From: Rhyzopertha dominica | Lineage: Eukaryota; Arthropoda; Insecta; Coleoptera; Bostrichidae | Length of the DNA: 64,000 nt | Assembly (NCBI GenBank): GCA_025024175.1 | Contig: QCXZ01000138.1 | Span: 43,371,092-43,435,091, forward strand | Direction of reading: 5' to 3' | Shown here: positions 1,523 to 62,399 of the stretch, piece after piece | Position numbering within the stretch: the stretch's first letter is position 1 | How the letters are laid out: each line of letters begins with the position of its first letter | Program-made: the position numbers and the translations under genes | Notes under the pieces: generated by a model | What the model was told of the DNA's origin: nothing | Databases searched by the model: none | The model's input: the letters and a program-made list of their open reading frames with translations, nothing else

Positions 1523-1750
1523 TACGAGCCCTAACAACTAAATATTGGGACGATTGCAATTTTGACTAAATACATCGCTCGGTTTTAAAAAGGCGTGCCG
1601 TGCGTTGCAGCTGAGTAGAATTCGATAACTTTACCAAGTATTCCGTCAACTCTAAGCATATTTATCAAAAGCCAACTTTATTTTTGATTGCAAAAATGAT
1701 ACAATATTGACACAATGTGTAATTTCTGCTGACAACTAAATATTGGGACG
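1523..1750 (+). repeat. Left terminal inverted repeat of the Tc1 element with two direct motifs
   Basis: About 228 bp, alignable along its length with the inverted right end. It carries the 19-bp motif at 1534-1552 (outer) and 1732-1750 (inner). Beyond the identical outer 44 bp the two ends differ by scattered substitutions and small indels, so the arms have aged while the four motifs stayed identical. Confidence 0.9.
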
Positions 1751-1760
1751 TTCATAAAAA

Positions 1761-2853
1761 CTAGTAGGTGGTGACATCCCCTTTGGCCTTGATCACCGCG
1801 CGAATTCTGGCGGGCATACTTTCCACTAATTTCTTGCAGAATTCAGGCGATAGAGCATCCCATATTCGCTGAATTTCTTGTCGTAAGTCCGCGATTGTCC
1901 GTTGTGGATGATTGCGCAAATGTCTCTTCATTTCATGCCATACGGCTTCGATAACATTCAAATCGGGGCTATTTGCTGGCCAAGATAAGACGTTAATGTT
2001 GTTGGTTCCAAACCATGCCTTAGTGGTGCGGGCTGTGTGACTGGACGCACCATCTTGTTGAAAAATACACTGTCCTTCAGGACAGAGGACTTCAAGACTG
2101 GGAAGTAAACAATCTTGCAAAATTGATTGGTACTTCGTTGCATTTACGATCCCCTCTATAAACATTAACTGCCCGACACCTTCAGCGGACATGCAACCCC
2201 AAACCATCTGCCCCTTGGCAAACTTGACTGTTCGCTTCAAACAATCCTTATGGAATGCCTCATTTTTTGCCCTGATCACACGTTTACGACTGTCACCAAC
2301 GCAGACATCAAATTTGGACTCATCGCTGAAGATAACTTTTTTCCAGTCATTATAAGTCCATGTCACTTTCGACTTTGCCCATATTAAGCGACGCTTCTTC
2401 TGTTCCGCAGTTAATAAAGGTTTTTCTTTTGCCTAAAACCATGTAAATAATTAAACTTGTACCTAGCTTTGCAGTACAAGTATCATATTTTGTGCTTACT
2501 TTGTAAAAGCTCAACCCCGAATGATGTATCCATCGACGGCAACATTCTCTTGACAAATTTAAATTTGTTTCGTTATTCCAACAAGCGGTGATTTCTCGTA
2601 ACGTGCTGCGACGTCCACCTTTGCAAATTTTGACCAGTTTTCGTTGGTCCCGCGGCTTTACCACAGAAGGTCTACCCGGACTTTTGCCTTTGATTTCTAA
2701 AGTGCCTCTGTCGGCATAGTATTTGGTAACGTTTCCCACTGATGATTTACTTAAGTTCAGCTCCGTTGCTATTTTTTGTATCGACAACCCCTTGCAGTAC
2801 ATGGAAATAATAATTTCCCGAACTTTTTTGACAATTGGCACACCTCTCACCAT
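1761..2853 (-). CDS. Tc1-family transposase, intact after removal of a 67-nt intron
   Basis: Cut-and-paste transposase that binds its own inverted repeats and inserts at TA in the nucleus. Exon 1 is 2853-2500 (118 residues) and exon 2 is 2432-1761 (223 residues plus stop), together 341 residues, the usual length for Tc1 transposases. The start is the ATG at 2853. Residues about 24-46 form a helix-turn-helix (SIQKIATELNLSKSSV), and a GRPS motif at 60-63 resembles the GRPR hook between the two DNA-binding subdomains. The catalytic triad is D155 (IFSDES), D245 (FQQDGA) and E280 (SPDLNVIEAVW), with 34 residues between the second D and the E, so DD34E. Read without splicing, the gene seems to be two ORFs in different frames. 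With the GTAAGC...TTTTAG intron removed, exon 1 ends FYK and exon 2 continues AKEKPLLTAEQKKRRL, which fits the family linker with no stop. No disabling change is visible; expression is unknown. Confidence 0.9.
2433..2499 (-). other. Predicted phase-0 spliceosomal intron in the Tc1 transposase
   Basis: On the minus strand the segment begins GTAAGC at 2499 and ends TTTTAG at 2433, 67 nt. It falls exactly between codons 118 and 119. Retained, it forces a frame change; removed, the helix-turn-helix half and the DDE half join in one frame with a family-typical junction. Introns inside Tc1-superfamily transposases are known (Tc1 and Tc3 of C. elegans). Splicing is inferred from sequence only. Confidence 0.82.
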
Positions 2854-2946
2854 TTTTGACGCAATAACGACGACTGCTCGTCACCAACAATTATCACTGA
2901 CAGTATCCAACAAACACACCGCGTGTATCATTTGTTTTACCATAGC

Positions 2947-3172
2947 CGTCCCAATATTTAGTTGTCAGCAGAAATTGCACGTTATGCCAGGATTGTGTTA
3001 TTGCGTCAGTGAAAAATAAAGTTAGCTTTTGAAAAATATCCTAAGAGTTGACTGAATACATATTAAAGCTAGAATTCTACTCAGCATCAACGCACGGAAC
3101 GCCCTTTTAAAACTGAGCGATGTTTACGGTCAAAATTGCAATCGTCCCAATATTTAGTTGTTAGGGCTCGTA
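2947..3172 (-). repeat. Right terminal inverted repeat of the Tc1 element with two direct motifs
   Basis: About 226 bp, inverted relative to the left end, with the same 19-bp motif at 2947-2965 (inner) and 3143-3161 (outer). The inner motif lies about 95 bp upstream of the transposase ATG, so the promoter of the gene probably lies inside this repeat. Confidence 0.9.
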
Positions 3173-3174
3173 TA

Positions 3175-12664: not shown

Positions 12665-12797
12665 GGCAGCGATGGTTGCTAGGTGAGGAGGAAATCCAGC
12701 AATACCCTATCTCGAGTTTGCACCTTAGGGAAAATAATCTTTATGTTTTTGTCTTCCCGGATCACACCCGAGACTAAAATTGGCGGTACCTTATATA
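12665..12797 (+). repeat. Diverged direct repeat flanking the palindromic element, copy 1
   Basis: Aligns in direct orientation with about 13606-13746. Shared anchors in order: CTATCTC, GCACCT-AGGGAAAA, ATCT-ATG, TTGT, CGGA, GAG-CT, TTGGCGGT-CCTTA. Copy 1 ends where the CAGGGTCC terminus of the element at 12798 begins. Confidence 0.6.
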
Positions 12798-13605
12798 CAG
12801 GGTCCGCCACCTAAAACTCCCCAGGCTAGTATTTTCTTAATTTTTTTAAGTACAACCTTAAGTTATATAATATAATAATTAGAACACTTGGTAATGTTTC
12901 AGATTTTATTGAGTTTAACCTTTTTAACACCCGCTCGTAGGTATAGAGGCTCATGCATGGGATCTGCATCTAACTTTAAGCTACAGTTTCGTTTTGTAAA
13001 CTCTTTGAGAAAGGCCTAATAAGCCGAAACATGTAAGAGGTTAAACTCAATAAAATCTGAAACATTACCAAGTGTTCTAATTATTATATTATTAATAAAA
13101 TGTTTCATTTAGCGCCGTCAAACAAGTCAATTGAAGTTACTTAAGTTATATGTCAAATTGTAGGTCTTTTTAAACTCTTTAAAAATAGCTTGGTGGATGT
13201 CCAAAAAAATTTTTTGCAGATTATAATATTTTGTATATAAAGTTATTTGTTGTAAATATTTTTTAACCTTACCTCGTATAATCAATATTGCGCTGGGTAT
13301 GTAGGCACAATTTGTACCGTAATAAGCTAATAAACCAACACTTCTGAACATGGCGGCGACTAGTTTTTCTTGTTTTCCGCTAAGAAGGAGTAAAAATTAC
13401 GCATGCACGGTAATGACACAAATTGAAGAAGACAAAAATCGGCATCGAACTATGAAGCAATATTTATTATACGGGGTAAGGTTAAAAAATATTTACAAAA
13501 ATTAACTTTATTTGCAAAATATCACAATATGCAAAAAAATATTTTGGACCCTCACTATGCTATATTTAAAGAGTTCAAAAAGACCTACAATTTGACATAT
13601 TTGAC
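12798..13605. mobile_element. Damaged palindromic TA-type element, same family as 26558-27543
   Basis: Begins TATA then CAGGGTCCGCC-CTAAAACTCCCC, as does the complete copy at 26558. It continues with the same subterminal text (ACCTTAAGTTATAT, then AAATTGTAGGTC) on the left arm, and an inverted version (GACCTACAATTTGACATAT) near 13583-13603 on the right arm. The right terminus is missing and the centre is shortened compared with the intact copy. It is interrupted at 12869-13139 by another insertion. No protein is encoded; the ORFs at 13127-13351 and 13529-13714 are the two arms read in opposite directions. Confidence 0.78.
12869..13139 (+). mobile_element. 271-bp insertion with 53-bp perfect inverted arms, 12-bp duplication and a tail
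   Basis: Inserted into the left arm of the palindromic element and flanked by an exact 12-bp repeat, CTTAAGTTATAT, at 12857-12868 and 13140-13151. It has two 53-bp identical inverted arms (starting at 12869, ending at 13090) plus a unilateral 49-bp tail (13091-13139). Between the arms, near 13009-13041, is GAGAAAGGCCTAATAAGCC followed by GAAACATGT, which resembles stem II, the GAAA core and the short stem III of hammerhead ribozymes found in Penelope-like elements. The CUGANGA core is degraded to TTGAGAA. Inverted terminal repeats plus a one-sided tail also fit Penelope-like structure. The assignment is tentative. Confidence 0.55.
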
Positions 13606-16276: not shown

Positions 16277-16840
16277 CTAAAAAGAACTTTCACTGCTAAA
16301 ATCACGATTAACTTCTATTAATAATTCTTGTACATGATTCGCTCTGTACCGATTTTCAATGGCCAGTACAGGCCAGACTGAATTTCTCCATGCATCGACA
16401 CTTGTTATTTCAGTTTCGTGTCTAATATTTAGCAGCATTTCATTGCTAATTTTTCCATCGGTGTTCCCTCGTCGAATTCTTTGTTTTAGCTGCCCCCATA
16501 TCATTTCAATAGCGCTGAAAATGAATTATATGGGGGTAATCGTAGAATGGTGTGTCCACATTCAGAGGCGAGAAAGTCTATTTTAAATTTCTTCGAAAAA
16601 TTTTCTTCCAACAATTGTTTTTTTGTGTAGTCCTCTTCGAAATATAAATCTTCTTTTCTTAAAAACTCTTGAATGGTTGCCTGATTAGTTGTTGTATTTG
16701 GAATTTTATCCAGTTGCTCCGAATGGTAACTGGCGTTGTCCATTACTATGACGCTGTTTGGTGGCAATTTGGGCAATAAAATGTTTTTGAACCAATTTTC
16801 AAACACTTCCGCATTCATATCAGAATGATAATCGTTTTAA
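16277..16840 (-). pseudogene. DDE_3-type transposase relic, 5' truncated, one frameshift
   Basis: C-terminal half of an IS630/Tc1-like DDE endonuclease widespread in insects. It starts near 16840 with DYHSDMNAEVFENWF, continues LPKLPPNSVIVMDNASYHS (the second catalytic aspartate in VMDN), then ECGHTILRLPPY. A one-base deletion (or equivalent) near 16525 changes frame, after which the reading continues SAIEMIWGQLKQRIR with the third acidic residue, to a stop at 16277. The N-terminal DNA-binding region and first aspartate are absent. A stop precedes the DYHSD block. Apart from the single frameshift the catalytic half is well preserved, so it may be relatively young. Confidence 0.85.
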
Positions 16841-26059: not shown

Positions 26060-26555
26060 AATATAAGCCGGGAGTTGCTTTTACTGTACTGTCCGGTTAT
26101 TTTACCATTGCTTAGACACCTAATAAATACTTGTTTGTTTAGAGAATACGGTCCGTCCCTAACGCATGGAAAATTGCTAAAATTATACCGTTTCCAAAAT
26201 GTCAGAGGTGACATCTTTTGACGAACTTCGTCTGATATCTCTATTGCCGCCAATGTCGAAGGTTTTCGAAAAGATTATAGCACGGCAGATAAAACGGCGC
26301 CTGCAAAATATAACATCTTGCCGCTTAGGCAATCATGCTTTCGAAGGGATATAGTTGCCCTTTTCGGCTTCGTGAGCTTCATGAGCTGCTGGTTTCAATG
26401 CTGGGATATGTTGATTTTTCCCCACCTTCAGCATATCTATCTATCTTCTAAATCGAAGACAGTATACTGCAACGGATGTGGGTGCTTCCGCAGAGGGGAT
26501 TATATCGTCTGGAGTGCCTCAAGGCTCTGTGCTGGGTCCTATTTTGTTTTGTATA
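26060..26555 (+). pseudogene. Second LINE reverse transcriptase relic, 5' part
   Basis: Decayed non-LTR reverse transcriptase. Near 26160-26300, in more than one frame, it gives WKIAKIIPFPK, FDELRLISLLPPMSKVFEKI and ARQIKRRLQ, the fingers region of insect Jockey-like RTs. An internal deletion shortens the middle. 26505-26553 gives SSGVPQGSVLGPILFCIY, the RT block just before the catalytic box. It is then cut by the palindromic element at 26558 and resumes at 27546. It is a different subfamily from the relic at 9.1-11.2 kb, judging by motif wording. Confidence 0.87.
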
Positions 26556-26557
26556 TA

Positions 26558-27543
26558 CAGGGTCCGCCGCTTAAAACTCCCCAGGCTCGTATTTTCGCTA
26601 TTTTTTTAGGTACAACCTTAAGTTATATATGAAATTGTAGGTTCTTTTAAACTCTTTAAAAATATAATATTGTGTCCAAAAATTTTATTGTAAATATTTT
26701 CTAACCTTACCCCGTATAATAAATATTGCTTTATAGTTGGATACCGCCTTTTATTTTCTTCAATTTGTGTCTTTACCATGCATGCGTAATTTTTACACCT
26801 TCTTAGTGAAAAACAAGAAAAACTATTCGCCGTCATTTTTGTTAATAGGGTTGGTCAGAATTTTTTAAGTGTTATTTTAGTAGCTTATTACGTTACAAAT
26901 TATGACTACATACCCATCGCTGCACACAAAACCCCAAAATTTGGAGTAACTTTTTAATAAATAAAGTACAAAGTTCGTTCTACAGAGGAAGAGGCTAGAA
27001 AACGAAACCCTGCGATGAAGTTAGTTTGGTTTTCTACACCACGCACTAGCCTCATCGCAGGGCTTCGTTTCCTAGCCTCTCTCCCTCTGTAGAACGAACT
27101 TTGTACTTTATTTATTTAAAAGTTACTCCAGATTTTGGGGTTTTGTGTGCAGCGATGGGTATGTAGGCATAATTTGTACCGTAATAAGCTACTAAAGTAA
27201 CACTTAAAAAATTCTGAACAACCCTATTAACAAAAACAAAAATGGCGGCGACTAGTTTTTCTTGTTTTTCACTAAGAAGGAGTAAAAATTACGCATAATG
27301 TTAAAGACACAAATTGAAGAAAATAAAAGCCGGCACCCAACTATAAAGCAATATTTGTTATACGTGGTAAGGTTAAAAAATGTTTACAAAAATTATCTTT
27401 ATTCGCAAAATATGATAATCTGCAACATCCAATATTCTATTTTAAAGAGTTTAAAAAGACCTACAATTTGACATATAACTTAAGTTTGTACCTAAAAAAA
27501 TAAAGAAAAAACGAGCCCGGGGAGTTTTAGGTAGCGGACCCTG
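26558..27543. mobile_element. 986-bp palindromic (fold-back) TA-type element inserted in a LINE
   Basis: Begins CAGGGTCCGCC and ends in the inverted form; almost the whole element is two inverted arms of roughly 490 bp meeting near 27045. It is flanked by TATA on both sides. Removing the element and one TA lets the LINE frame read on (FCIY then TCNLLPCMNH), which favours a TA target duplication. Removing four bases instead gives a stop. TA duplication suggests a Tc1/mariner-related origin but no transposase is encoded and the superfamily is not proven. The arms contain the text also present in the damaged copy at 12798-13605. Long self-complementary arms could form one large hairpin RNA if transcribed. 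Confidence 0.85.
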
Positions 27544-27545
27544 TA

Positions 27546-28270
27546 TACATGTAACTTGCTGCCTTGTATGAATCACTGCACTCCTTAGGTATACGCTGAT
27601 GATACACAGATTAATTATATGTTTCGCCTTATAAATGTAGATTATGCAAACAATGCAATTAACGAGGATTTGAGACAGTTACTGCAAGTTTCGTCCCAAC
27701 ATCAGATGACCACAAACCCACTAAAGAGTTCTGTATTAGTATTTGGCAAAAATAGAGAACTGGCTGAAAAACTTTTTGAAATGATCAGTGACAGTGTGCT
27801 GTAGTGCTCAAGGGTGGTAAAGAGTTTGGGTGTAGAATTAAATACGGAACTGCGGCTTACAGGTCACGTAACAAAAAAAAAGATAAATGCTGCATATATT
27901 AATTTAAAAAAATGGTATCCTCATAGATACGTTCTGCCACCTAGACTAAAGATAGCGCTGACGGACACAACGTTATTGTGTCATATGAATTACTGCGATG
28001 TCCTTAATGGTCCATAGCGGATGCAAACCGTATTGAGCGTGTACAATAATCTTGTTTAAGGTTTATTTACTCAATTAGAAAATATTTTCCAGTTTCCCAA
28101 AAGCTAAAATTTGCTGGTTGGTTGAGCATGGCGTACAAACGTGAATTGCATAATATATATGGACATGGCTTTGTCCCCCCCCCCCATATCAACCTGATAT
28201 GATTAAAGTTCAAATGATACGGGAGAAGACAAGCAACTTTTAGTCCTCTATCTCTGACCATATGGTATTG
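27546..28270 (+). pseudogene. Second LINE reverse transcriptase relic, 3' part with YADD box
   Basis: Continues the relic at 26060-26555. 27589-27609 reads VYADDTQ, the catalytic YADD box. 27619-27804 reads FRLINVDYANNAINEDLRQLLQ and onward as an open frame. After a stop, 27814-28017 reads VKSLGVELNTELRLTGHVT and ends LCHMNYCDVLNGP. In other frames ANRIERVQNNLV-like and IRKYFPVSQKLKFAGWLSMAYKRELHN follow up to about 28150. Damage is limited to a few stops and frameshifts, so most of the palm and thumb can be followed. Confidence 0.88.
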
Positions 28271-28620: not shown

Positions 28621-28829
28621 TTCTTGTTAATTGTTTTCTAACAACCCAATTCTTTAAAAAAAAATACGATAATGCTTCTGGCAACAGTTGATATCCAAAA
28701 CATAGTAAACTTGTAAAGTCTAAGCGGTTAAAACAATATTCGTTCCACTTAAATATGTATAAATAGATTTTATCGCCTATATAAAGTAAGTGTGTTCTAT
28801 AGGTGAAACAGGCAAATTTAAACAAAAAA

Positions 28830-29089
28830 GATTTCGCTTTGGCCGAAAATTGAACTCGTACCTTTGGAATGGCGCTCCATTGAGCATACCAACACACTAC
28901 CAAAGCACAAATGGTAAACGGCCAAAACTTATATTGCGCTAGATGGCGGGCTATTAGGCTTACTGTTAATTTAGATAACAGAAATAAACCTTGGGCCTTT
29001 GTAACTTGTGTTTTGGTAGTGTGTTGCCATTCATCTTGGAGCACCATTCCAAAGGTCCGAGTTCGATTGTCGGCCAAAACTAAATCTTC
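28830..29089. repeat. Inverted pair of tRNA-like (SINE-type) sequences
   Basis: Two arms of about 80 bp, 28830-28910 and 29005-29089, are inverted copies of each other (around 80 percent similar by eye) separated by about 95 bp. Reading the right arm forward, TTGGTAGTGTGTTG resembles a pol III A box and GAGTTCGATTG resembles a B box, spaced as in a tRNA, with CCATTCCAAAGGTC between. This suggests tRNA-derived SINE heads in head-to-head arrangement, not functional tRNAs: no clean acceptor stem or anticodon arm is visible. Confidence 0.5.
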
Positions 29090-29149
29090 TTTATCAGTAA
29101 AGCACACATTTAATATGTTTTCCTTATGCATCATATATTATTCTCCTTA

Positions 29150-33335: not shown

Positions 33336-34850
33336 ATCTTTTCTCGAGTTCCGAATCTAGAACAATGTACCAAAACCAACTCTACTTTCTAGCTCTACTT
33401 CTTTTACAACCCTGCTTTGCAACGGTCCTATCAAGCTGAAACTTCAGCAAGTTACCCGGTTTCAGCAGCAACAGCCCCCCCACTGTTCCGTCTTACCGGT
33501 GGTGAATTTGCACTGCCATAATATTTGCTCTCATCCAGTCGCTTGTTGCCATAACCTGCGCTCGCTCGTTTGTGTTAACGTAAACTGCTGTGTGACGTAA
33601 CACAACTTCAGACGTTGAGTGCCTCTCTCATTTTGTTATTAGAGGCAGACGATATTATCTTTTAGGAAACAGCAAAAAGTTAAGCGGCGGTTTATTCGCT
33701 ATGGACGTTTTTCAGCGGTTGATCTTTGGGGAAAAGATGAGTTCAGTAATTAGCGCTTTAAGCAGTTCTGTCTGAAGTGTAGTTAGTTTTTGAGATTACA
33801 GAGTCATTAGCTAGCTTAAAGTACTATTATTCAAGTAGAATGCTATACAGGGTATAAAAATGTCCAAATTCAGGGCTATGCACCAACAAGTTATTCTTTT
33901 GCATTCCAGAGATATTAATTTTTAGACAAAATACTGAAAGAAACAACAATTGTCAGCTTCAAATTTTGGAATACAGTTTGTGTACGATTTGATGCCAATT
34001 TGATTCAATAGCTAGATATATTGAAATGAACTAATTGGCAATTGCGTGCTAGGTACACGGCTTTGCGCTATAACTGTATACTGGTGTAAACAAACAAAGT
34101 GGACTTCATTTTGCTCTCACGTGGAATTTAAAGGGCCGTATACAACCATTAATAAACGATTTTGTGTCTGCATTTCCTTTTCCAAGTGTTTACCTGTGGA
34201 ATATATATAATAAATACCACTGACATTTGCCAGTTATACGTAATAAAGTTCATGTAAGTAGCCCACTGCTAATTTAGGGTATACGTATTATAACATCAAA
34301 TACTACAGTAAGTATACGCTCTGTTATGTTTAGAATGTGCAGTACCATAATATATAGGAGTATTTGAAATATTACGGTCATTGGCTTTTATTCTTTTTAA
34401 TTAGCAAAGATGTTATTTATTTAATAATTAGACTTAATGGCAGCTGCATTGCAATAAAGTCTTACTGTTATCGTTTGTAAACCAAGGGTGTATAATAACA
34501 TTTGAAATAGTTCTATCCTCCATTACAGTGTTATTAAAAATTGTGGAATAGCACGCCTATTTCTATAAATATAACCTTTACAGCGAAATGTCCTTAACAA
34601 AGGTTTTTTGCTAACTATTTTTAATTGTTCTTAAGCTCACTTTTTATTTTTGTTTTTCAGATTTATATTGCTCTTTGTCCCTAGAATGACCTGGTTTGAT
34701 TGATTGAAAAATTTGAAGCTTCAAATAAAGGACAAATAGCGTTATCAAAACAGTTTTTGCAGGTTTCAGTACTGGTTTTGCTCGTTTGATAATAATTCTA
34801 GTCCTTGCAATACTTAATTAAATAGGCCGTTCAATAGTTCCCCGAATTTC
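33336..34850. other. Copy A, non-coding leader of the block
   Basis: No gene recognised. It contains a C-rich run near 33475, a CACTGCC/CGCTCGCTCG GC-richer part (33.48-33.60 kb), and the isolated string TATACAGGGTATAAAAATGTCC at 33844, which resembles a transposon terminus without a partner. Confidence 0.4.
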
Positions 34851-34859
34851 AATCCACAG

Positions 34860-35440
34860 ACCTGTGTCTTGTTGAAACCAGATATTGCGATTTGGCGTTC
34901 TTCACCCATCTTTATTTTTGTTCTAATGGCTCGCGTGAGACGATTCTAAACAGTGACCACTTTTCCAGAACATCCCTCCTGCGGAGAGCTGTGTACGATA
35001 TTTTTGGGTTTCGCTGAAGAAGGGTGACGCCATTTTTTGTTTGTTCTTTTAGTTCAGATTAATTAGAGTGCACCCACTACTCATATCCAGTCACCATTCT
35101 TGTCAGAAAAGCATCTGCTTCTGCTCCATAGCAACGTTCTTCACATGCATCAACGCGTCATTATTTTAGTTTTTTAGTCAATTGCTTTGACACCCATCTT
35201 TCTGAAACCTTGTGCAAATTGAGGATATCGTTCACATTGTGGTGCACAGAATCAAATGCTATAACACGATTTGCTTGAGCACATTGGTGAGAGCCATCTA
35301 GGCAATCTGTACACAAGCTGGAGTGACAATCATTAATTTCCATGCTGTATCTTCATTCTACGACAAATATCAGTGCGTCTTACGCCTTCACCGTGCAAGA
35401 AACGAATAACAGAACATCGTTCCTCCTTAAAGTGCAATGC
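34860..35440 (-). pseudogene. Mariner transposase relic, copy A
   Basis: Minus strand, in shifting frames. From about 35440: EERCSVIRFLHGEGVRRTDI and CRRMKIQHG (N-terminal helix-turn-helix), a gap, then 35230-35165 HKVSERWVSKQLTKK, then ACEERCYGAEADAFLTRMVTG. There the TGDESWVH block appears as TGYE-stop-WVH, so the first catalytic aspartate is lost. Then WRHPSSAKPKNIVHSS and, near 34895-34875, IWFQQDTG with the second aspartate kept. The third acidic residue is not found. The same lesions appear in copy B at 47.8-48.4 kb. Confidence 0.83.
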
Positions 35441-35449
35441 TCTAGTAGA

Positions 35450-38400
35450 GTGCAATTTTTAAGCTGTCGGTGTTTCCTGCAATATTTCATTAAGGCAGCC
35501 TTCTACATCTCAAAGGTTTTTCTAAATAATAAACTTCTAATAATGGCATCACGCAATAGATTCAAGTAGTTGCCCAATAATACTGTCTCACAGGTTTAGT
35601 TTCTGCAGATACTGTGTATACTGTTCCATCATCCAGTTAAAATTTTCAGGGCACTAGTAACACCAGTTATGCCTGTGTTATCCATTTAGGCAAAAAGTGG
35701 CTTGGTTGGAAATAAAACGTTGTTGTAGATTATCATTGGTCTTGTCCGTCATCATCGCACTGCATTCTTGTGTCAGAACCGTCTTCATCTAGCTTATGCA
35801 TAAGGATTTTGTATTTGTCTTTTTTTGTATATTCGAATAACTAGTATTATTTCCCCAAACAAGTTGTGTGATTGATGTGCATGAGTTATACATAGCACTG
35901 ACTAATACATTAGGAGCTTCAGATTCACTTTGAGATATCTTTTCATGTCCAGTGTATTTAGATTTCTTACCTTACTTGTACACTGTGCATTAAGCAATAG
36001 GATTTATCTCCGGATGAAAGTTATTGAATAATTCATAAATATATTAGTTTGAACGTTATCGATCTCCATAGCTAACCATTACCAGGATTTAATTCGTTCA
36101 GCTTCACTTATGTGTTTAGAAACTCCATCATACCATACAAAATAAACACCAGATCATTTCAAGGACAAAAAAAGATAGAAATAAGCAAAATCATTGGTTA
36201 TCATAAAAAAAGTATACTGTTACGGAGCTGTGTTAACATATAAACCAAAAGTAGACTTAGAAATTAAAAATAATCGGCAAAAATAACTTTTGCTAAGGTC
36301 ATTTTACTATAAATTTCATATTTTCACAAATAAAGCGGTTATTCCATAGTAACCATGCGTATTGTCACGTAGTTTGAGCTGATGAGATAGAATGATTTTG
36401 TGATTCCCTTGCATTAATTCCGCTTAGACTGAATGATTGTTTGAATTAACTTATTCGGTCGGAAACCATATAGATCATAATAGGCGTTTGTATAAACTAC
36501 CCGTCTGAACGTTGTCGAAATCTAGAACAACGCTAAAAATCACAGTGGCCTTTGGATTGTGTGAATCGAAGCACGCCACGCCGTATTACCTTGTTCAGTA
36601 CTCGACATTTTCGCGCTGTGACGCGTCGCGTTGCTCTTATGAATTGAAATAATACATCGCTGATTGTGATTTCGTATCGGAGCAATCAACATCCGTTAAC
36701 TATGTGTGACTTGATGCCTCATTAGTGTAAGCGGACACTGAACGTTTGCTGTTTAATTTAAGTGGCCAAAATTGGAGAACGATTAGGTTAGTGCGCGATT
36801 CCATTGTGATACCACAGGAGGTGAGGTAGGAGCCTAAAGAAAAAGGTATGATTTTCATTTACACTTAGGCTATTAGTCTAATAAACCTTACAAAAAGCAG
36901 GTACATGTAGCATAAATACATATGAATATATTGTAATTACCCAACAAATATAATATACAATATAGTATATAAAACACTATAAAAGTAGAGTTTACATTGG
37001 GTGTGAAGTAATAAACACTATATTTTTATAGCTAATATTAATTCTAAAACGAAACCTCGAACAAAACAGGGTTATTGCGTCCGTGATATTATCGAAACAG
37101 GTAGGGCAAGTGCTGTACTCACATTTTTCATTTATTTATTAAACAGTTTTGAGGGATCAGTAGCTACATAATGCACATATATTGAAGTATTTTTTAAGTA
37201 AACTAATTATGTTTTACCTTTTTTCGAAAACGGTCTTTACCGGATTGTCCGAGAGTGATACCTGTAAGCGTTATGGGACAGATACTTCGAACAGCATACA
37301 TGCATTGATTGCAATGAATACATTGCAGCCAACTGTTATTTTTCTTTTGTACTTACGTATTCCTCTCTACAGCCAACACAATAGGCACTTTGGTCATCTA
37401 GGTATTCCTTATCGGTGGAGTCATTTTGCTAGATGTACTACTTCTTGGTTTATAATTTCTGAAATGCTTTTCCATTGTCACTCCTAAAATTGATGGAGGC
37501 CATATATCTTCTTTTATAGAGATTTTTGTTTACAATTCATCTTTTCAAGGTCCTTGGAGGAATTCCATACTGCGTTACTGTGCGAGAACTTTCCGTAAAG
37601 TCCCTCTGTTTTCGTCGACACTTCTTACAGCCTAAGTCAGTTGATTTGGAGTCCCTTATCCGCAATATGGTCATTTTCCTTTATATTCAGTAGGAGTACC
37701 TGTTACTGAAACAAACCACGCCATGCAGTAAAATTCAATCTTACATCAATTAGGGTTACCAGCCCTTCTTTCTCGACAATCTTATAATGAACCTTATTAA
37801 GACAACAAAAAAGATTTTTGTTAATCCTACCATACAAAGATTCGTGCATCTCTCCCTACACCGAGTTCTGAATCTCTACTAAAGTTAAGGACGAGATTCC
37901 GTGTACAATTGTTTAATTTCGCGGCTAAACTTTTAACGCGCCACTAGGAAAAGCATAAACCTCTTATAATATCGCGCGTTCAAAAGCTAATAACTAAACA
38001 TCCAAAAGCGGACTAAAATATCACTCTACCATTGTAATTAATATTCCCCTTCATCCAAAACAAAAAACGCAAATAAGTAACACAGATCAGCGATGAAAAG
38101 GTTTTCTACATAATTTTACTTGAAACATATGGATTTTAGGGCTGCTGATTCCGATTTAGTTTTTGCGTATCACGTCACGTTTTTTTAATGACGGATGCCT
38201 GTATTTAATATTTATTAAATATCAGCAATTACAGTGAATAAATAATTACATCTGGTTTGAACGATTACACATCATACACATCATTCTCACTCTTTCTCGT
38301 CCCGATGTTTTTGTTATATATGTGGACAATGTGCCTTAGCGAAACAAAGAAAAAATATAACAGACTTTGCAAAAGATTCTTCTTTTGCTTACTTCGAAAT

Positions 38401-38680
38401 TCGGTTGGGACAAGATGAACAGTAGGTACCACATAAAGCATGTTTTTGCCTTGAAACACTGAGACGGTATACAAATATCATTTCCTTTTGGAACTCCTAT
38501 GGTGTAGCGCGAGCAAACAAATCATATTAACCATTGCTGTTNTTGTTTGAGCACTGTAACGAGNTATAATTCTANAACCATCACAAAATTGACTGTCCCT
38601 AATGATTCCTCGGTAACAGAGCCAATTCCACGTAGGCCCGAATTATCCATTCCCATTTTTTATAAAATGCTTCGAATCAA
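35450..38680. other. Copy A, no gene recognised; possible first-exon region near 36.55-36.85 kb
   Basis: 36.55-36.85 kb is GC-richer than its surroundings and ends in AAAAAG followed by GTATGATT, a plausible splice donor, so a non-coding first exon and promoter of a host gene is conceivable but unsupported otherwise. The frame at 37182-37487 matches no family I know and is conserved only because the block is duplicated. Confidence 0.3.
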
Positions 38681-38689
38681 CTTTATCTC

Positions 38690-40110
38690 GCCAAAATTCA
38701 GAATGTAATGATTTTTTTAGCAGCGGTGAAATTTTTAATCGTGTGATTGAGTCTTGACCCTTTAAGCACAAAAAACTTAATGATGCAGCCGAACTTCTAG
38801 GCTCACATCTAAAAGAAAACAATTTGTTAGACTTTTTATTGGTATCGAAGTTCGAGCAGTATCTTAAAAAGAGGAAAACTTGGTTTTCTGCTGTGATGTT
38901 GACGGTCTGGTACATAAATTTTGCATTGAGTACAAAACACAAGAATGGCTGCTATTTACAGACCCTTCGAAAAGAAGCCTGAAAAAAGTTCTTCTATATA
39001 TTGGCAATAGAATGCATCTATACCTGTTGCACATTCAGTTCAACTTAAAGAATCTTATAACAACTTAAAAAGTGTTTTTGAAAAATAAATTACATTAAAC
39101 ACAATTGGCTAATTTGTGGTGACTAATTCTGCATGGTTCTTCGTCAATAACAAGGCTATACAAAATTTCCATGTTATATTTGCAAAAGGGATAGTAGAGC
39201 ACAAGGTTTAAACTGCCCGCTTCGAAAAAAAATTAAAGCTGGAAAAAAGAATGTTATTCATGCCAATTTGATAGATCCTGAGAAGATATTGCTTTCATTA
39301 ATTTTTTACGTTTTCAGCAATTTACAGCTAGCTCCGCCGTTCAAGATTCTGCTTTAATGTGGGGGAAATTTGATTAACAGTGTTTTAATTTTCTTTTTAG
39401 ACTGAAAATTTATAAAGTTGATCGCAAAATGGTTGGTAATGGGGCGTTACACCACACCACATCAAACTTAGATTGATGAAACAATTTGTCAAGTCTTTAC
39501 CAAAAGATGGAGACACTTTTATCTATCTCTGTTCATGTTTTCCTAATGTATTTGATACACTAACTAATTACTAACTTACTTACCTTAACTAATTAAAGAG
39601 GAACATTTTGAAAATGTTATGACAGATTTAAAAAGAAAAACCTCGGAGTTCCTTAAAGAAATCTTAAATTGTTATAAAAACTCAGGTTACAACATGAGTT
39701 TGAAAATTCACTTTACTTTCAAAATTTTGTTTGAACTTGTGCCAGGCAAATTTTGAGGTTCTTCGTATCTGACAAAGATGTAATTGAAACGTCAGACTAT
39801 TAACTTTTTGTCAGTGTTTTCAAGAGACCGATCTATCCGACAAAAATATTATCTTATATTTATGGACGCTGAAAGCATTCACCCTCGTATTCATGTTTTA
39901 TATTCCCACATTGACTATTTTCCGGAAAATCTTGGAGATTATAGCGAAGAACAAAGGGAATGTTTTCACCGGGACATTAAAGATATGAAAAGAAGATATG
40001 AAGGCTATTGGGACGTCAGTATGATGGTTAACTATTGTCGAACGATCCACAGAGAAACAGATAAAGAACATCGGCGGAAACCAACAAAACGAAGCGTTTA
40101 CTTAATCCAA
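38690..40110 (+). pseudogene. Decayed gene of an arthropod repeat-associated protein family, copy A
   Basis: Blocks, in order, match a protein family I recognise from many arthropod genomes, where it is multi-copy and of unproven function. 38895-38965 reads VDGLVHKFCIEYKTQEWLLF, then TDPSKRSLKKVLLYIGN. Near 39150-39300 (shifted) QGYTKFPCYICKRDSRAQ and KNVIHANLIDPEKI. Near 39455-39540 PHHIKLRLMKQFVKSLPKDG. Near 39630-39705 FLKEILNCYKNSGYNMSLKI. 39895-40080 reads YSHIDYFPENLGDYSEEQRE, then CFHRDIKDMKRRYEGYWDVS and onward. Many stops and frameshifts, plus about 190 bp of extra sequence before the last block. Multiplicity suggests a mobile-element or domesticated origin; that is inference. Confidence 0.68.
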
Positions 40111-40114
40111 AGAT

Positions 40115-41735
40115 TTTATTTCACCAGAAATTTATACATAATTTTCTTTAAATGTTAAAATTACCTGTATTTGCTAAATGTGACGTGATGGGTACAATAA
40201 AATAGTGTTTTATATTTAACATCGGACTACTATAACGAACATTAATCATTCAGTAAAAAAACCTTTAATAAAGTTTAATTTCGTAGACCTGTGTAATTAG
40301 CAAATGATGCAAATTATTTTAGGGGCAACACGTAACCACGACTAGGATGTTTAAGACGTACAGTACACTAGCGACACAGTCAAGTCTGCGGCTAAAACTC
40401 GAGATATTTCAAATGGGCATATCACCCTGAATTACCGTATTATAGTTGTTCGTTAAATTTTTTTTCTATTCAAAGGACGCAAGCTTCTAGTTTATCGATA
40501 AAACGATTAGTAATTCAAATCTTCTCTGTTTAGGTAAATACTTAAAGCACTCAATTATAGTGCTTTGCCAAGGGAAAGGAGAAACCATATACATATAAAA
40601 TTACATTTTGCTTTATACATTATACAGAAGTAAAGGTACTGGGTGGGTATATTCCACATTCTAGATATCAAAACTAGCTATACTTAAGCATATTACGAGT
40701 ATTGAATTTTTATGAAAATATCAGCAATATCCTCCAGTGTAGAGAACAATGCTGAATATATTGGGAAGAGCTTGCTTGACTGAAAACATGTAATATCGAA
40801 ATAAAGGTGGATGCATTGTTGCCAAGTATATAAGGTGATGCGTGGTTATTGCTGCTTAGGATTGTGGTGTAGTTATACCGGGATTGAAGCAAAAATTGCT
40901 TGAGATAAAGAAAAAAGTCCCTTGGTATAGCAGCAGGAATCTATCAACCTGATAAAATTTTACTTCCTTAGGTTTTAATAAGGAATCTAATACTCTTAGC
41001 TTCAACAAAACAGCAAACACTTCATCCCACTTATTATGACAAACTTTTTCTACACTTTAGATCGGCATATCAAACCGACAACACTGTGAATCCTTTAGGA
41101 CAGTCTGCGACGATGGTCCGTCGCTTTTTTCATTTCCGTTTCCGCGTTTATAGTCCTGTGTTTGATGCACACAAACATAGATTGAATCGGACCCCAACAC
41201 AATGGCTTTATCGCAAATAAATATCGAACCGTGTGCGGATGTATGCTTACTGTTATGAGCCTGTGGTCGACTTGAGAGTCCATCGTCTATCTCTTTCGTT
41301 TTGCTCGTAGCACCTTTCAGATAATGTGTGCTGCAATGCCAAAAATGGGAGAGCATTGAAACATTTATTTACTTGAAGAGTCAATGTTATTCGATACATT
41401 AGGTTTTGAGGAACAAAAACAATGAAAGGAATGATAGGACATTACTCAAAAGTATATAATATTTGGGGTTGAAGTATTAAATAACATTCATCAACTTCTT
41501 TGTTCCACAATTTATTCTTTTTGTCCTTAATCAGTTGGAGTGGTTCTGTAAGGGTGTGATAGGTCAAAAGCAGCATAGATTTTTGAAAGGAAAATCAACA
41601 TTGACTAGTGTTCTTTGTTATCAATATCACTTGTTTAGTACATAGGAAAATCGGATAGTTTCAGGTCTCACATCAATAAACTACTTTAATCCACTCCTAA
41701 ATTAAATACTAGTAATAACGATAATGATAATGAAT
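40115..41735. other. Copy A, no gene recognised; contains the divergence boundary at about 41340
   Basis: Nothing named. The minus-strand frames at 41057-41356 and 41095-41283 are unmatched. At about 41340 the near-identity with copy B stops and ordinary divergence begins. Confidence 0.45.
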
Positions 41736-41742
41736 TGTTTGA

Positions 41743-42240
41743 TTGTTAATTGTTAAGATTGGATCATTACCCAACATTACAGGATTAACATGGAAATTAA
41801 TAAGAACTTTCTATAAATCAAACATAAAAATAGCTCAAAGTATCATTAAAAAGGTTAAAGTTTTTTTTCAAAATGAAAATCCAAAAGTTCCCAGTGTGTG
41901 TATGGTACATGTGAGAACAAGTATATTGGTCAGACATCATAATGGCTATCTAGCAGATTAGAACTACATAAAGGTGATAGGTATGTCAAAAAACATGTGA
42001 GATGTGCTCTAGTAGAACATGCATTAAAGAATAACCACATCATAAATTGGGATATTGTAAAAAATTTAGAAAAAGGGCGGAATACTAATAAAAGAATAAT
42101 TTTGGAGATGTACCTAATTAATAAGACTACTAATATTATTAATAAAAAATTGGATACACAAAATTTAAGTAATATATAACACATATTTGTTATCAACAGA
42201 AGTTTAAAAAAATTAATAAAACCTAAATTCAAGTAGTTTT
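41743..42240 (+). pseudogene. Penelope-like GIY-YIG endonuclease segment, copy A, frameshifted
   Basis: Homologous to the open version at 54706-55212. It reads LIRTFYKSNIKIAQSIIKKV, then GTCENKYIGQTS-like text disturbed by indels near 41930-41945, and continues in another frame CALVEHALKNNHIINWDIVK and INKTTNIIN. Copy A has lost the single reading frame that copy B keeps. Confidence 0.75.
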
Positions 42241-42861
42241 TGACGATTTCTTTTATAATATTTCAAAATTTCATTTTGGTGTACCATAATCTTTTATGTG
42301 GCATTGTTGCAATTTCAATATTAAACATTACAAGAAAATTTTAATATACATAATAAGAAACTTAGGAATCAAAATTCAAAAGCATAATATAAGCGGTTTG
42401 TGGATTTGACTGCTACGTCACCTTATTTGGTATTATGTATACATAAAATTTCTACTTTGTGTTATATGCCTAGTACATTTAACATATACTGGTTAAATTC
42501 TCTGAGTTTCGTAACTTATTAGAGTTTCCTAGTTTAAACTCAAATTTGTAATTAACATGTTGTTCCACTTCTTACAAATTAGTAAGCCTTAACGAAGACT
42601 GTAAAAAAGCAGTTGAAAGCTTGGCAGAAATAAAGAGTATTCGTTGATCTTTACCATCAGGTCGAATTCTCCCGATATATCTTAGCTTAATATTTACAAG
42701 TAAATGACCGCTAATAAGAATAGCACCTCAAATAATGAACCCGGACAATTTTGGTTGTTTGTAGACATGAAAGAGCGTATTCCTTATGGCGGCGGGCAAC
42801 GTTAATGTAGCGTGTAGCCACTAACATGTAACACACTCTTGTTGCATTGAAGCACTCTAAG

Positions 42862-43607
42862 CAGTGATGGGCGTTTACGCGTAAATTATAATTTTCTACA
42901 TTACCCGCGTAGAAAATGTAGATAAAGCATTTTGGCGTAGATTTTGAGTAGAAAATATGAGACGAGTATATTATGGCTATTGTATATTAAGTGTATTGTG
43001 CAAATTATTTTGTTCCAATTTCCCTGTTTTATGGGTCAATTCTTAAATTTTTTTAAAGCACTACAGTTTTTTAATATTTATATTATAAATTTGCATAACT
43101 TATTTTAGTAAGTCATCAGAATACCAAAACGGTTTTCTTACTTCTTTAGGACAAAACATGCGTTTCGAAGTCTTTTCTTCTACGGGTATATTAGGTATAA
43201 TAGGTAGCATATGAAATAGCCCGTCTTCTTCCGTTTATAGACAAAAAAGATAATGAAATCATAGTTTACAGTCATTTAAGAACCCATTGACCGATTGAGG
43301 GCTCCAAAGCACGCTTGTGCGTTCTGGCCCTAACAACTGTATGCCGAAACAAGTTATTGTTGTTTAACGTGTGTCTAGTTATTTTAATTACAACGAAGTA
43401 GTATTTTGTTTAGTTAGAAAGCAACAAAATTAATAATATACAAAATAATACTGTCATTTGGAGCTGTTAAAAGTACTAAACATTACTAGTTTGCTGTTTA
43501 TCTACATAATGTTATTTTCTACAGTAGGCCTTTAAAGTAGAATATTATATAGTTTGCGCGTAGATAATGGCGTAATCTACATGAAGTATTCTACGCGCCC
43601 ATCACTG
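42862..43607. mobile_element. 746-bp non-autonomous hAT-type element, only in copy A
   Basis: Starts CAGTGATGGGCGTTTACGCG and ends CTACGCGCCCATCACTG, inverted termini of 12 bp identical then similar, in the style of hAT ends. Subterminal regions at both ends are rich in short GTAGA/TCTAC and GCGTAGA motifs, as expected for hAT transposase binding. The interior codes for nothing recognisable. The flanking 8-mers (ACTCTAAG left, CTTATCTG right) do not match, so the normal 8-bp duplication is missing. Copy B, between the same flanks, has about 390 bp of unrelated sequence instead, so a deletion next to the insertion is likely. Confidence 0.8.
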
Positions 43608-43689
43608 CTTATCTGACTGTTTTAAATGTTTTAACTTACATAATGTCCTGTGTCATTTACTCTTTATACTTGTCATGTACTAGCTAATA

Positions 43690-44480
43690 AAATCTACAAC
43701 ATCAAGATGCCATAAAGTAAACATAGGCTACAATAAACTTAAACCCGTTGGGTGTATTAGTGTGCGCATTCGCAAATGAAACAAAACTAAAACAGAGCTT
43801 GCAAATATTGGAAGAAGAATTGAGAAAGAAGAACATGAAGATAAATACCAACAAAACCAAAAGTAATGGTAACTGCCAATTACACACATACAAATAAACA
43901 ATAAACAAATAGAACAAGTAGACAATTTTAAATACCTGCGAGTATCCATAGATAAAAGAGGGGAACATGGAATCTGAAGTTTAACGAAAGAATAAACATC
44001 GCAGCAAAACTGTGTCACAGCGTATCGACACATTCCTTAACAAAAAAAAGAAGTAAGTACACAAACGAAGATGACGATCTTCAAAACAATATTCAGACCA
44101 GTACTCACATATGGAAGTGAAATCTGGCTACTATCGTAACCCATAAAAAGCAAAGTCCATGCAGTTGATATGAAATATCTCAGAAGAGTAAAAGGGGTAA
44201 CAATAAGAGATAAAATCAAAGTGAAAAGGTGATAGAAGACCTCGACATAGAACCAGTTCTACACAGAATATAAAATCAGCAACTGAATGGTTTGGACAAC
44301 AATCGATCAGTTAAGATAGTATTGGAGACATTCCACGAGGAAGACCAAGAAAACATGAAACTCGAATGTTGCAGGAATTACTTACCAACATGGGGAAGTG
44401 GCAAAAACATTATCACTGAACAAAAAGAAGTGGTCAAAGTTTGTGCACAGTGGTGATAGTGAAAACATATAACAGTAGAG
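43690..44480 (+). pseudogene. LINE reverse transcriptase C-terminal relic, copy A
   Basis: Homologous to 56270-57110. Fragments: LQILEEELRKKNMKINTNKTK (in pieces), IQINNKQIEQVDNFKYL, TKMTIFKTIFRPVLTYGSEI and HAVDMKYLRRVKGVTIRDKI. These are the thumb and C-terminal region of an insect LINE RT. Frameshifts and stops throughout. The minus-strand frames here (43702-43968, 43728-44033, 44037-44219) are shadows. Confidence 0.8.
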
Positions 44481-44942
44481 AATATACAAAGAAGACAAAC
44501 AAAACTTAAACCTCACACCCATGGGTACAAAGAGGACTTGATTATATACCTGTATGTTCGCTAATGGTCTTAAACTTTATTCTTGCATTTCTTGTTGTTA
44601 ACGATTGCACGGTCACGCGAGATGATTGCATGGCGTAAGGTGTTACTACAATGGTTTGAACTAAATTATCAAAATGCAGCTGAACTGTGTAGGTTAACAA
44701 TATGAAGTCGTTTTTAAACAGGATTAACAAGTACATGGATGTTGGTGTCATTTTGATGATCTTTTAACAATCACATAATAGTTGTCATGGATAATGATGC
44801 ATCCTACATGTCATATGGTTGCACGGTACACTCAATTAATAATGAACATACTATTCGAGAAGAGTCTTCCGAAAGAAGATTTCTCAAGTTTCTGTCACAA
44901 CGGACTGATGGTTTTAACCATCTAGAGACTGTGACCATACAC

Positions 44943-46283: not shown

Positions 46284-47799
46284 ATCTTTTCTCGAGTTCC
46301 GAATCTAGAACAATGTACCAAAACCAACTCTACTTTCTAGCTCTACTTCTTTTACAACCCTGCTTTGCAACGGTCCTATCAAGCTGAAACTTCAGCAAGT
46401 TACCCGGTTTCAGCAGCAACAGCCCCCCCACTGTTCCGTCTTACCGGTGGTGAATTTGCACTGCCATAATATTTGCTCTCATCCAGTCGCTTGTTGCCAT
46501 AACCTGCGCTCGCTCGTTTGTGTTAACGAAACTGCTGTGTGACGTAACACAACTTCAGACGTTGAGTGCCTCTCTCATTTTTATTAGAGGCAGACGATAT
46601 TATCTTTTAGGAAACAGCAAAAAGTTAAGCGGCGGTTTATTCGCTATGGACGTTTTTCAGCGGTTGATCTTTGGGGAAAAGATGAGTTCAGTAATTAGCG
46701 CTTTAAGCAGTTCTGTCTGAAGTGTAGTTAGTTTTTGAGATTACAGAGTCATTAGCTAGCTTAAAGTACTATTATTCAAGTAGAATGCTATACAGGGTAT
46801 AAAAATGTCCAAATTCAGGGCTATGCACCAACAAGTTATTCTTTTGCATTCCAGAGATATTAATTTTTAGACAAATAACTTGAAAGAAACAACAATTGTC
46901 AGCTTTCAAATTTTGGAATACAGTTTGTGTACGATTTGATGCCAATTTGATTCAATAGCTAGATATATTTGAAATGAACTAATTGGCAATTGCGTGCTAG
47001 GTACACGGCTTTGCGCTATAACTGTATACTGGTGTAAACAAACAAAGTGGGACTTCATTTTGCTCTCACGTGGAATTTAAAGGGCCGTATACAACCATTA
47101 ATAAACGATTTTGTGTCTGCATTTCCTTTTCCAGTGTTTACCTGTGGAATATATATAATAAATACCCACTGACATTTGCCAGTTATACGTAATAAAGTTC
47201 ATGTAAGTAGCCACTGCCTAATTTAGGGTATACGTATTATAACATCAAATACTACAGTAAGTATACGCTCTGTTATGTTTAGAATGTGCAGTACCATAAT
47301 ATATAGGAGTATTTGAAATATTACGTCATTGGCTTTTATTCTTTTTATTAGCCAAGATGTTATTATTTAATAATTAGACTTATGGCAGCTGCATTGCAAT
47401 AAAGTTTACTGTTATCGGTTTGTAAACCAAGGGTGTATAATAACATTTGAAATAGTTCTTATCCTCCATTACAGTGTTATTAAAAATTGTGGAATAGCAC
47501 GCCTATTTCTATAAATATTAACCTTACAGCGAAATGTCCCCTTAACAAAGGTTTTTTGCTAACTATTTTTAATTGTTCTTAGCTCACTTTTTATTTTTGT
47601 TTTTCAGATTTTATATTGCTCTTTGTCCTAGAATGACCTGGGTTTGATTGATTGAAAATTTGAAGCTCAAATAAAGGACAAATAGCGTTATCAAAACAGT
47701 TTTTGCAGGTTTCAGTACTGGTTTTGCTCGTTTGATAATAATTCTAGTCCTTGCAATACTTAATTAAATAGCCGTTCAATATTCCCGAATTTCAATCAC

Positions 47800-48390
47800 A
47801 GACCTGTGTCTTGTTGAAACCAGATATTGCGATTTGGCGTCTTCACCCATCTTTATTTTTGTTCTAATGGCTCGCGTGAGACGATTTCTAAACAGTGACC
47901 ACTTTTCCAGAACATCCCTCTGCGGAGAGCTGTGTTACGATATTTTTTGGGTTTCGCTGAAGAAGGGTGACGCATTTTTTGTTTGTTCTTTTAGTTCAGA
48001 TTAATTAGAGTGCACCCACTACTCATATCCAGTCACCACTTCTTGTCAAGAAAAGCATCTGCTTCTGCTCCATAGCAACGTTCTTCACATGCATCAACGC
48101 GTCATTATTTTAGTTTTTTAGTCCAATTGCTTTGACACCATCTTTCTGAAACCTTGTGCAAATTGGAGGATATCGTTCACATTGTGGTGCACAGAATCAA
48201 ATGCTATAACACGATTTGCTTGAGCACATTGGTGAGAGCCATCTAGGCAATCTGTACACAAGCTGGAGTGACAATCATTAATTTCCATGCTGTATCTTCA
48301 TTCTACGACAAATATCAGTGCGTCTTACGCCTTCACCGTGCAAGAAACGAATAACAGAACATCGTTCCTCCTTAAAGTGCAATGCTCTAG
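47800..48390 (-). pseudogene. Mariner transposase relic, copy B
   Basis: Counterpart of 34860-35440 with the same block order (EERCSVIRFLHGEGVRRTDI, HKVSERW-, FQQD) and shared lesions, differing mainly by small indels. Not independent evidence of a second insertion. Confidence 0.82.
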
Positions 48391-48399
48391 TAGAGTGCA

Positions 48400-51300
48400 A
48401 TTTTAAGCTGTCGGTGTTTCCTGCAATATTTCATTAAAGGCAGCTCTACATCTCAAAGGTTTTTCTAAAATAATAAACTTCTAATAATGGCATCACGCAA
48501 TAGATTCAAGTAGCTTGCCCAATAATACTGTCTCACAGGTTAGTTTCTGCAGATACTGTGTATACTGTTCCATCATCCAGTTAAAATTTTCAGGGCACTA
48601 GTAACACAGTTATGCCTGTGTTATCCATTTAGGCAAAAAGTGGCTTGGTTGGAAATAAAACGTTGTTGTAAGAATTATCATTGGTCTTGTCCGTCATCAT
48701 CGCACTGCATTCTTGTGTCAGAACCATCTTCATCTAGCTTATGCATAAGGATTTTGTATTTGTTCTTTTTTTGATATTCGAATAACTAGTATTATTTCCC
48801 CAACAAGTTGTGTGATTGATGTGCATGAGTTATACATAGCACTGACTAATACATTAGGAGCTTCAGATTCACTTTGAGATATCTTTTCATGTCCAGTGTA
48901 TTTAGATTTCTTACCTTACTTGTACACTGTGCATTAAGCCAATAGGATTTATCTCCGGATGAAAGTTATTGAATAATTCATAAATATATTAGTTTGAACG
49001 TATCGATCTCCATAGCTTAACCATTACCAGGATTTAATTCGTTCAGCTTCACTTATGTGTTTAGAAACTCATCATACCATACAAATAAACACCAGATCAT
49101 TTCAAGGACAAAAAAGATAGAAATAAGCAAAAAATCATTGGTTATCATAAAAAAGTATACTGTTACGGAACTGTGTTAACATATAAACCAAAAGTAGACT
49201 TAGAAATTAAAAATAATCGGCAAAAATAAACTTTTGCTAAGGTCATTTTGGCTATAAATTTCATATTTTCACAAATAAGCAGTTATTCCATAGTAACCAT
49301 GCGTATTGTCACGTAGTTTGAGCTGATGAGATAGAATGATTTTGTGATTCCCTTGCATTAATTCGCTTAGACTGAATGATTGTTTGAATTAACTTATTCG
49401 GTCGGAAACCATATAGATCATAATAGGCGTTTGTATAAATTACCCGTCCTGAACGTTGTCGAAATCTAGAACAACGCTAAAAATCACAGTGGCCTTTGGA
49501 TTGTGTGAATCGAAGCACGCCACGCCGTATTACCTTGTTCAGTACTCGACATTTCGCGCTGTTGACGCGTCGCGTTGCTCTTATGAATTGAAATAATACA
49601 TCGCTGATTGTGATTTCGTATCGGAGCAATCAACATCCGTTAACTATGTGTGACTTGATGCCTCATTAGTGTAAGCGGACACTGAACGTTTTGCTGTTTA
49701 ATTTAAGTGGCCAAAATTGGAGAACGATTAGGTTAGTGCGCGATTCCATTGTGATACCACAGGAGGTGAGGTAGGAGCCTAAAGAAAAAGGTATGATTTT
49801 CATTTACACTTAGGCTATTAGTCTAATAAACCTTACAAAAAGCAAGGTACATGTAGCATAAATACATATGAATATATTGTAATTACCCAACAAATATAAT
49901 ATACAATATAGTATATAAAACACTATAAAAGTAGAGTTTACATTGGGTGTGAAGTAATAAACACTATATTTTTATAGCTAATATTAATTCTAAAACGAAA
50001 CCTCGAACAAAACAGGGTTATTGCGTCCGTGATATTATCGAAACAGGTAGGGCAAGTGCTGTACTCACATTTTTCATTTATTTATTAAACAGTTTTGAGG
50101 GATCAGTAGCTACATAATGCACATATATTGAAGTATTTTTTAAGTAAACTAATTATGTTTTACCTTTTTTCGAAAACGGTCTTTACCGGATTGTCCGAGA
50201 GTGATACCTGTAAGCGTTATGGGACAGATACTTCGAACAGCATACATGCATTGATTGCAATGAATACATTGCAGCCAACTGTTATTTTTCTTTTGTACTT
50301 ACGTATTCCTCTCTACAGCCAACACAATAGGCACTTTGGTCATCTAGGTATTCCTTATCGGTGGAGTCATTTTGCTAGATGTACTACTTCTTGGTTTATA
50401 ATTTCTGAAATGCTTTTCCATTGTCACTCCTAAAATTGATGGAGGCCATATATCTTCTTTTATAGAGATTTTTGTTTACAATTCATCTTTTCAAGGTCCT
50501 TGGAGGAATTCCATACTGCGTTACTGTGCGAGAACTTTCCGTAAAGTCCCTCTGTTTTCGTCGACACTTCTTACAGCCTAAGTCAGTTGATTTGGAGTCC
50601 CTTATCCGCAATATGGTCATTTTCCTTTATATTCAGTAGGAGTACCTGTTACTGAAACAAACCACGCCATGCAGTAAAATTCAATCTTACATCAATTAGG
50701 GTTACCAGCCCTTCTTTCTCGACAATCTTATAATGAACCTTATTAAGACAACAAAAAAGATTTTTGTTAATCCTACCATACAAAGATTCGTGCATCTCTC
50801 CCTACACCGAGTTCTGAATCTCTACTAAAGTTAAGGACGAGATTCCGTGTACAATTGTTTAATTTCGCGGCTAAACTTTTTAACGCGCCACTAGGAAAAG
50901 CATAAACCTCTTATAATATCGCGCGTTCAAAAGCTAATAACTAAACATCCAAAAGCGGACTAAAATATCACTCTACCATTGTAATTAATATTCCCCTTCA
51001 TCCAAACAAAAAACGCAAATAAGTAACACAGATCAGCGATGAAAAGGTTTTCTACATAATTTTACTTGAACATATGGATTTTAGGCTGCTGATTCCGATT
51101 TAGTTTTTGCGTATCACGTCACGTTTTTTTAATGACGGATGCCTGTATTTAATATTTATTAAATATCAGCAATTACAGTGAATAAATAATTACATCTGGT
51201 TTGAACGATTACACATCATACACATCATTCTCACTCTTTCTCGTCCCGATGTTTTTGTTATATATGTGGACAATGTGCCTTAGCGAAACAAAGAAAAAAT

Positions 51301-51630: not shown

Positions 51631-51639
51631 TCTCGCCAA

Positions 51640-53060: not shown

Positions 53061-53064
53061 AACG

Positions 53065-54700: not shown

Positions 54701-54705
54701 TAATA

Positions 54706-55820: not shown

Positions 55821-55823
55821 AAG

Positions 55824-56212: not shown

Positions 56213-56269
56213 ATCTGACTGTTTCAATGTTTTAACTTACATAATGTCCTGAGTCCTTTACTCTTTATT

Positions 56270-62370: not shown

Positions 62371-62399
62371 AACAATTATTTATAAATTAGATTAACAAG

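Follow-up and report, generated by a model that had tools for sequence, protein, structure and literature searches.

Anatomy of the element and of its surroundings

A Minos-like Tc1/mariner (DD34E) transposon of 1646 bp (CGAG...CTCG) occupies positions 1525-3170 on the minus strand of the analyzed window, i.e., the whole 64-kb stretch of DNA considered here, in which no second copy of the element was found. It lies between TA target-site duplications at 1523-1524 (left) and 3171-3172 (right). The initial annotation of this locus had described an apparently intact Tc1-superfamily transposon with IR/DR ends and TA flanks, extending from 1523 to 3172. The repeats, the motif, the frame and the genomic copies all bear out this description and the TAs are indeed present, with one adjustment of the extent: 1523-3172 counts both TAs, and the element proper is set to 1525-3170 because its 22 copies have differing flanks and the three related (paralogous) empty sites hold a single TA.

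The terminal inverted repeats (left, 1525-1750, plus strand; right, 2947-3170, minus strand; ~225 bp, range 224-226) are 85% identical over 226 columns, and each contains two directly repeated motifs, which defines an IR/DR layout; the transposase gene has its 3′ end on the inner side of the left repeat. An alignment of 1521-1750 with 2947-3174 spans 230 columns, 34 of which differ. The outermost 44 nt, with TA counted (1523-1566 and 3129-3172), are identical inverted copies, as had been claimed, and this run extends to 46 columns (two flanking bases forming a further TA that matches here, the TA duplication and 42 bases of the element); the innermost 30 columns are identical as well. When the same matches and mismatches were reordered, an outer identical run of this length appeared in 0.026% of 200,000 shuffles, and the outer run together with the inner 30-nt run in 0 of 200,000. 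The 19-bp motif, previously reported as present four times without change, is exact at the outer (1534-1552) and inner (1732-1750) direct repeats of the left end, both on the plus strand, and at the inner (2947-2965) and outer (3143-3161) direct repeats of the right end, both on the minus strand; a search of the window with up to three mismatches returned the same four sites alone (shuffle mean 0.04, 100 shuffles). The conservation of the motif, along with the precedent of other IR/DR elements, points to these four sites as putative transposase binding sites. The sole AATAAA hexamer on the minus strand of the element, located within the left repeat (1677-1682), is a candidate poly(A) signal.

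The transposase gene consists of exon 1 (2500-2853, minus strand, residues 1-118, DNA-binding domains) and exon 2 with the stop codon (1761-2432, minus strand, catalytic domain), separated by a 67-bp GT..AG intron (2433-2499, minus strand) between codons 118 and 119. The open frame requires the removal of this intron, whose splicing is predicted from sequence; the joined frame (2853-2500, then 2432-1764, with the stop at 1763-1761) encodes 341 aa, in agreement with the earlier proposal of a transposase free of stops after intron removal and carrying D155, D245 and E280. These three residues form the catalytic triad, in which the second D and the E are spaced by 34 residues (DD34E), and in a 41-row protein alignment both D are present in 41/41 rows and the E in 40/41. 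Pfam matches to HTH_Tnp_Tc3_2 (residues 70-140, E=1.8e-14) and DDE_3 (E=6e-15) both score over the curated cut-offs, and the catalytic domain of Sleeping Beauty (5cr4) is the sole match among solved structures at E<=0.001 (residues 115-341, E=8.8e-41). Of the 51 columns in which at least 90% of 40 full-length relatives agree, the window protein departs at one, C104, where 36 of the 40 relatives have T; this departure, as well as a G113R replacement in one genomic copy (L014), could affect activity.

Several unrelated features were recorded elsewhere in the window. A direct duplication of ~9.6 kb (33336-42864 and 46284-55826, 96% identity) has a neighboring pair of ~1.35 kb (43608-44939 and 56210-57522, 90%). 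Remains of a hAT-like transposase at 60149-62379 (minus strand) include a 541-aa open frame (60149-61771) with Dimer_Tnp_hAT and DUF4371 matches, whose six best species-named relatives are all beetle proteins, and an adjoining 216-aa frame with no Pfam match. Long near-palindromic inverted repeats at 26554-27547 (84%; pieces also at 12792-13600), 58164-58473 (72%) and 28824-29092 (70%) are perhaps foldback elements, and a 111-aa frame at 16504-16836 (minus strand), with a weak DDE_3 match under the curated cut-off (E=7e-06), is read as the relic of a further transposase, Tc1/mariner-like or related. Neither the Rfam nor the tRNA scan of the window gave a match.

Copies and empty sites in the host genome

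A search of the host assembly (479,159,283 bases, 138 contigs) for further copies and empty sites, a check suggested with the initial annotation, yielded at least 22 full-length copies of ~100% identity, distributed over seven contigs (C3, C42, C53, C64, C75, C136 and C137) and three empty sites; the copy count is a lower bound, with 40 of 203 candidates scored. Repeat-to-repeat matches inside the 22 copies aside, the next-best genome matches among these 40 of 203 candidates are just 64-71% identical. All 22 copies are bordered by TA at either end, and their flanks differ. Each whole copy differs from the window copy at no more than five positions, and eight of the 22 (L002-L009) are mutually identical. 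The total variation amounts to 11 substitutions and seven indels, every one private to a single copy (the window copy, L001, contributes one private base, at 3062), and five ambiguous bases (N) are spread over four copies.

No disabling mutation is shared among the copies: frames are open at 341 aa in 20 of the 22, the protein being identical to that of the window in 17 and differing by one or two residues in three (L011, one; L014, the above-mentioned G113R; L021, two), and two copies (L020 and L022) are frameshifted. Intron borders are intact in 22/22. Coding changes across copies (four non-synonymous, three synonymous) are too few for an inference of selection; the neutral expectation is ~71% non-synonymous, 24% synonymous and 5% stop, and no selection is shown.

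Loss of the motif from related copies is likewise not observed: the exact 19-mer occurs 88 times genome-wide, four per copy in all 22 copies and 0 elsewhere, with 16 further matches at two mismatches vs. six for a reversed control. The 42-bp terminal sequence, searched with up to three mismatches, has 43 genome matches, all perfect and all within the 22 copies (reversed-pattern control, 0); the absent 44th match is an end of L019 with a 1-nt deletion. No solo ends were thus detected in the assembly by this search, and, given that exact 19-mers outside the copies are also lacking, no relics are seen. The divergence of the inner parts of the inverted repeats had been taken to argue against a brand-new insertion, which is not borne out: the left-right differences are identical in every copy and were, therefore, inherited from the master, so that they are uninformative on insertion age. 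This corrects a common error: the age of a DNA transposon insertion cannot be read from how far its two terminal repeats have diverged from each other. The alternative suggestion, that the motifs alone are constrained, is consistent with the unchanged ends and motifs, on which the transposase probably imposes the constraint.

The copies together with the empty sites demonstrate past movement of the element. Related empty sites with one TA at the junction were found for L009, L010 and L018. The joined flanks of L010 match a nearby related repeat at 93% over 123 nt, unbroken and with a single TA at the junction; those of L018 match at 85% over 141 nt, also with a single TA, and those of L009 at 81% over 158 nt (gaps away from the junction; further copies too). 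These sites show that TA is duplicated upon insertion. Raw base counts around the TA sites look AT-rich; they also look symmetric, but by construction, both orientations having been counted. An estimate of copy number from public-contig records, in which the two exon frames appear in 6 contigs (longest 1622 nt), was rejected: such records tell nothing of copy number because the repeats of the element are enough to fragment even one simulated copy (to 1256 nt at k=31 and 1642 nt at k=41).

A probable recent burst and its possible origins

The private-only distribution of variants is the pattern left by a burst from one master. The mean distance from this master is 3.0e-4 per site (11 substitutions over 22 x 1650 bases), an upper bound with errors included and N kept, which, at insect mutation rates of 2.8e-9 to 5.5e-9, corresponds to ~55,000-108,000 generations, again as an upper bound. 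We are highly confident in the overall reading of a complete, autonomous-looking Minos-like DD34E/Tc1 transposon with a very recent burst, presumably driven by a working transposase, and a probable horizontal acquisition; points against this reading include two frameshifted copies and one copy with an indel in an end. Many copies could encode a working transposase, and the family may still be moving. The earlier observation at this locus is confirmed, and it is stronger than first stated.

Family knowledge of DD34E transposases suggests a cut-and-paste mechanism. The transposase mRNA would be spliced once, the resulting 341-aa transposase would bind both 19-bp sites of each repeat and excise the element adjacent to the terminal CGAG, and the element would then insert at a TA, which would be duplicated.

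Two further Minos-like families, each with two copies, were examined in the same genome. Their transposases are ~47-66% identical to the window transposase by stretch, and in both families the exons join at the same K/AKEKP place as in the window element. In L033/L034 (both G000:C43; 98.7% identical over 1511 nt, and possibly also a young family), identity to the window transposase is 49-66% by exon, and the exons meet at this place across a 56-nt gap. L031 (G000:C1) and L032 (G000:C136), with in-frame stops and repeats of 85-88%, form a decayed family, whose inner repeat motif nevertheless shares 22 of 23 bases with the window element, though the transposases differ widely. The clade, thus, has a history in this genome, while the window element's own family shows none. 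A Diabrotica protein (P0086) resembles L031/L032 by eye; taken with the beetle relatives of the hAT-like protein, it makes a beetle the likely host, as far as transposon proteins can tell.

The absence of old relics is the reason to propose that the element probably entered the lineage from another species shortly before the burst, although no donor was found. A lone vertically inherited copy that reawakened would look similar to a horizontal arrival, and persistence of one or a few copies by vertical descent, followed by a recent burst without any transfer, is the foremost alternative. Such persistence is favored by the presence of two other Minos-like families that share the intron place; no decayed relatives at ~71-100% identity were seen among the 40 of 203 candidates scored (a sampling in which decayed pieces could escape notice), and the lack of solo ends and of stray exact motifs also speaks against it, so that we regard this history as rather unlikely. 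Far less credible is a dead or domesticated element retained by chance at one place, which could invoke the two frameshifted copies of 22 but is contradicted by the empty sites and by 22 interspersed, near-identical copies that are flanked by TA, 20 of them with open frames. It is equally improbable that the high identity reflects gene conversion among older insertions or a collapsed or erroneous assembly rather than recent movement: sequencing errors may account for some of the private indels, but the copies lie on 7 contigs with differing flanks, an all-against-all comparison revealed no flank conversion beyond short repeat pieces, and every variant is private, as expected of a burst.

Our preferred reading, a recent burst that probably followed horizontal acquisition, can be carried one step further, to a more specific scenario on which our judgment is evenly divided. 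The element would be a Minos-like transposon with natural activity, observed while its invasion of a genome, probably that of a beetle, is under way after horizontal transfer, with at least 22 copies, most of them transposase-capable and none old, residing beside two Minos-like families; should this be true, the older, decayed L031/L032 ends, with their near-same motif, might be mobilized by the transposase of the newcomer or titrate it.

Only ten naturally active Tc1/mariner elements, Minos included, are counted in a 2010 review (PMC2874221). A family of no fewer than 22 near-identical copies, 20 of them with open frames, makes the element a strong candidate for a further one. It is also a possible gene-transfer tool for the host's group, and the family offers an opportunity to follow, as they happen, an invasion and its control by the host.

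Placement near Minos and comparison with known systems

A protein search returned 1347 matches at E<=0.001, the best 120 of which were examined. Among these 120, the best species-named match is the Drosophila hydei Minos transposase (P0006; 52% identity over the full length); the nearest full-length relatives (~60-65% identity) are P0001, P0002 and P0004 from short public contigs, and the nearest overall are the partial P0005 and P0122, also from short public contigs (83% identity to the window protein across the 201 aa of exon 2 and 79% across exon 1). A tree of 41 rows, all of them matches to the query (the window protein and 40 matches of 320-400 aa from the best 120; rooted at midpoint for drawing only), joins the window element with P0001, P0002 and P0004 at 100/99 and places it in a 16-row group holding Minos (support 100/98), with fish Tc1 elements outside the group. 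Judged by its protein sequence, the element is a member of the Minos-like subfamily of DD34E/Tc1, a kind already known. No relative was found in viral contigs by protein or exact motif search, and no title among those returned by the literature searches concerned a Minos-like element in a beetle.

Inserts at the intron place, read through in frame, are present in four of the 40 full-length relatives (P0002, P0004, P0022 and P0081), P0002 and P0004 among them thus resembling the window element. They consist of 19-24 extra residues located exactly between the K and A of FYK/AKEKP (in P0081, between FST and PRAKP); the partial relative P0055 has the same insert, and P0069 also fits the scripted insert pattern. 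More relatives may have the intron, because read-through is visible just when the intron is a multiple of three without a stop.

A side-by-side comparison with Minos of D. hydei reveals a common DD34E-type Tc1-like transposase and a common TA target. Minos has CGAG at its termini, a sequence also present in the footprint that it leaves; its motif is, presumably, different from the 19-bp motif of the window element. The dimensions also differ: Minos is ~1.8 kb long with repeats of ~255 bp and one 60-bp intron (PMC2874221, PMC10992017), vs. 1646 bp, repeats of 224-226 bp differing by 15% and an intron of 67 bp in the window element. Minos is termed DD34D in the above review (PMC2874221), against which P0006, the Minos transposase itself, has E at the third triad place.

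The IR/DR layout and DD34E signature, as described in PMC4120734, are shared with a broader group of elements with long ends that includes Sleeping Beauty, Bari, S and Paris. By sequence, the SB100X catalytic domain of Sleeping Beauty (5cr4) belongs to a common fold family with the window transposase, at a lower identity. PMC4120734 also describes Tc1-mariner transposase genes as usually devoid of introns, unlike the window gene, whose conserved intron thus stands out within a superfamily usually described as intronless.
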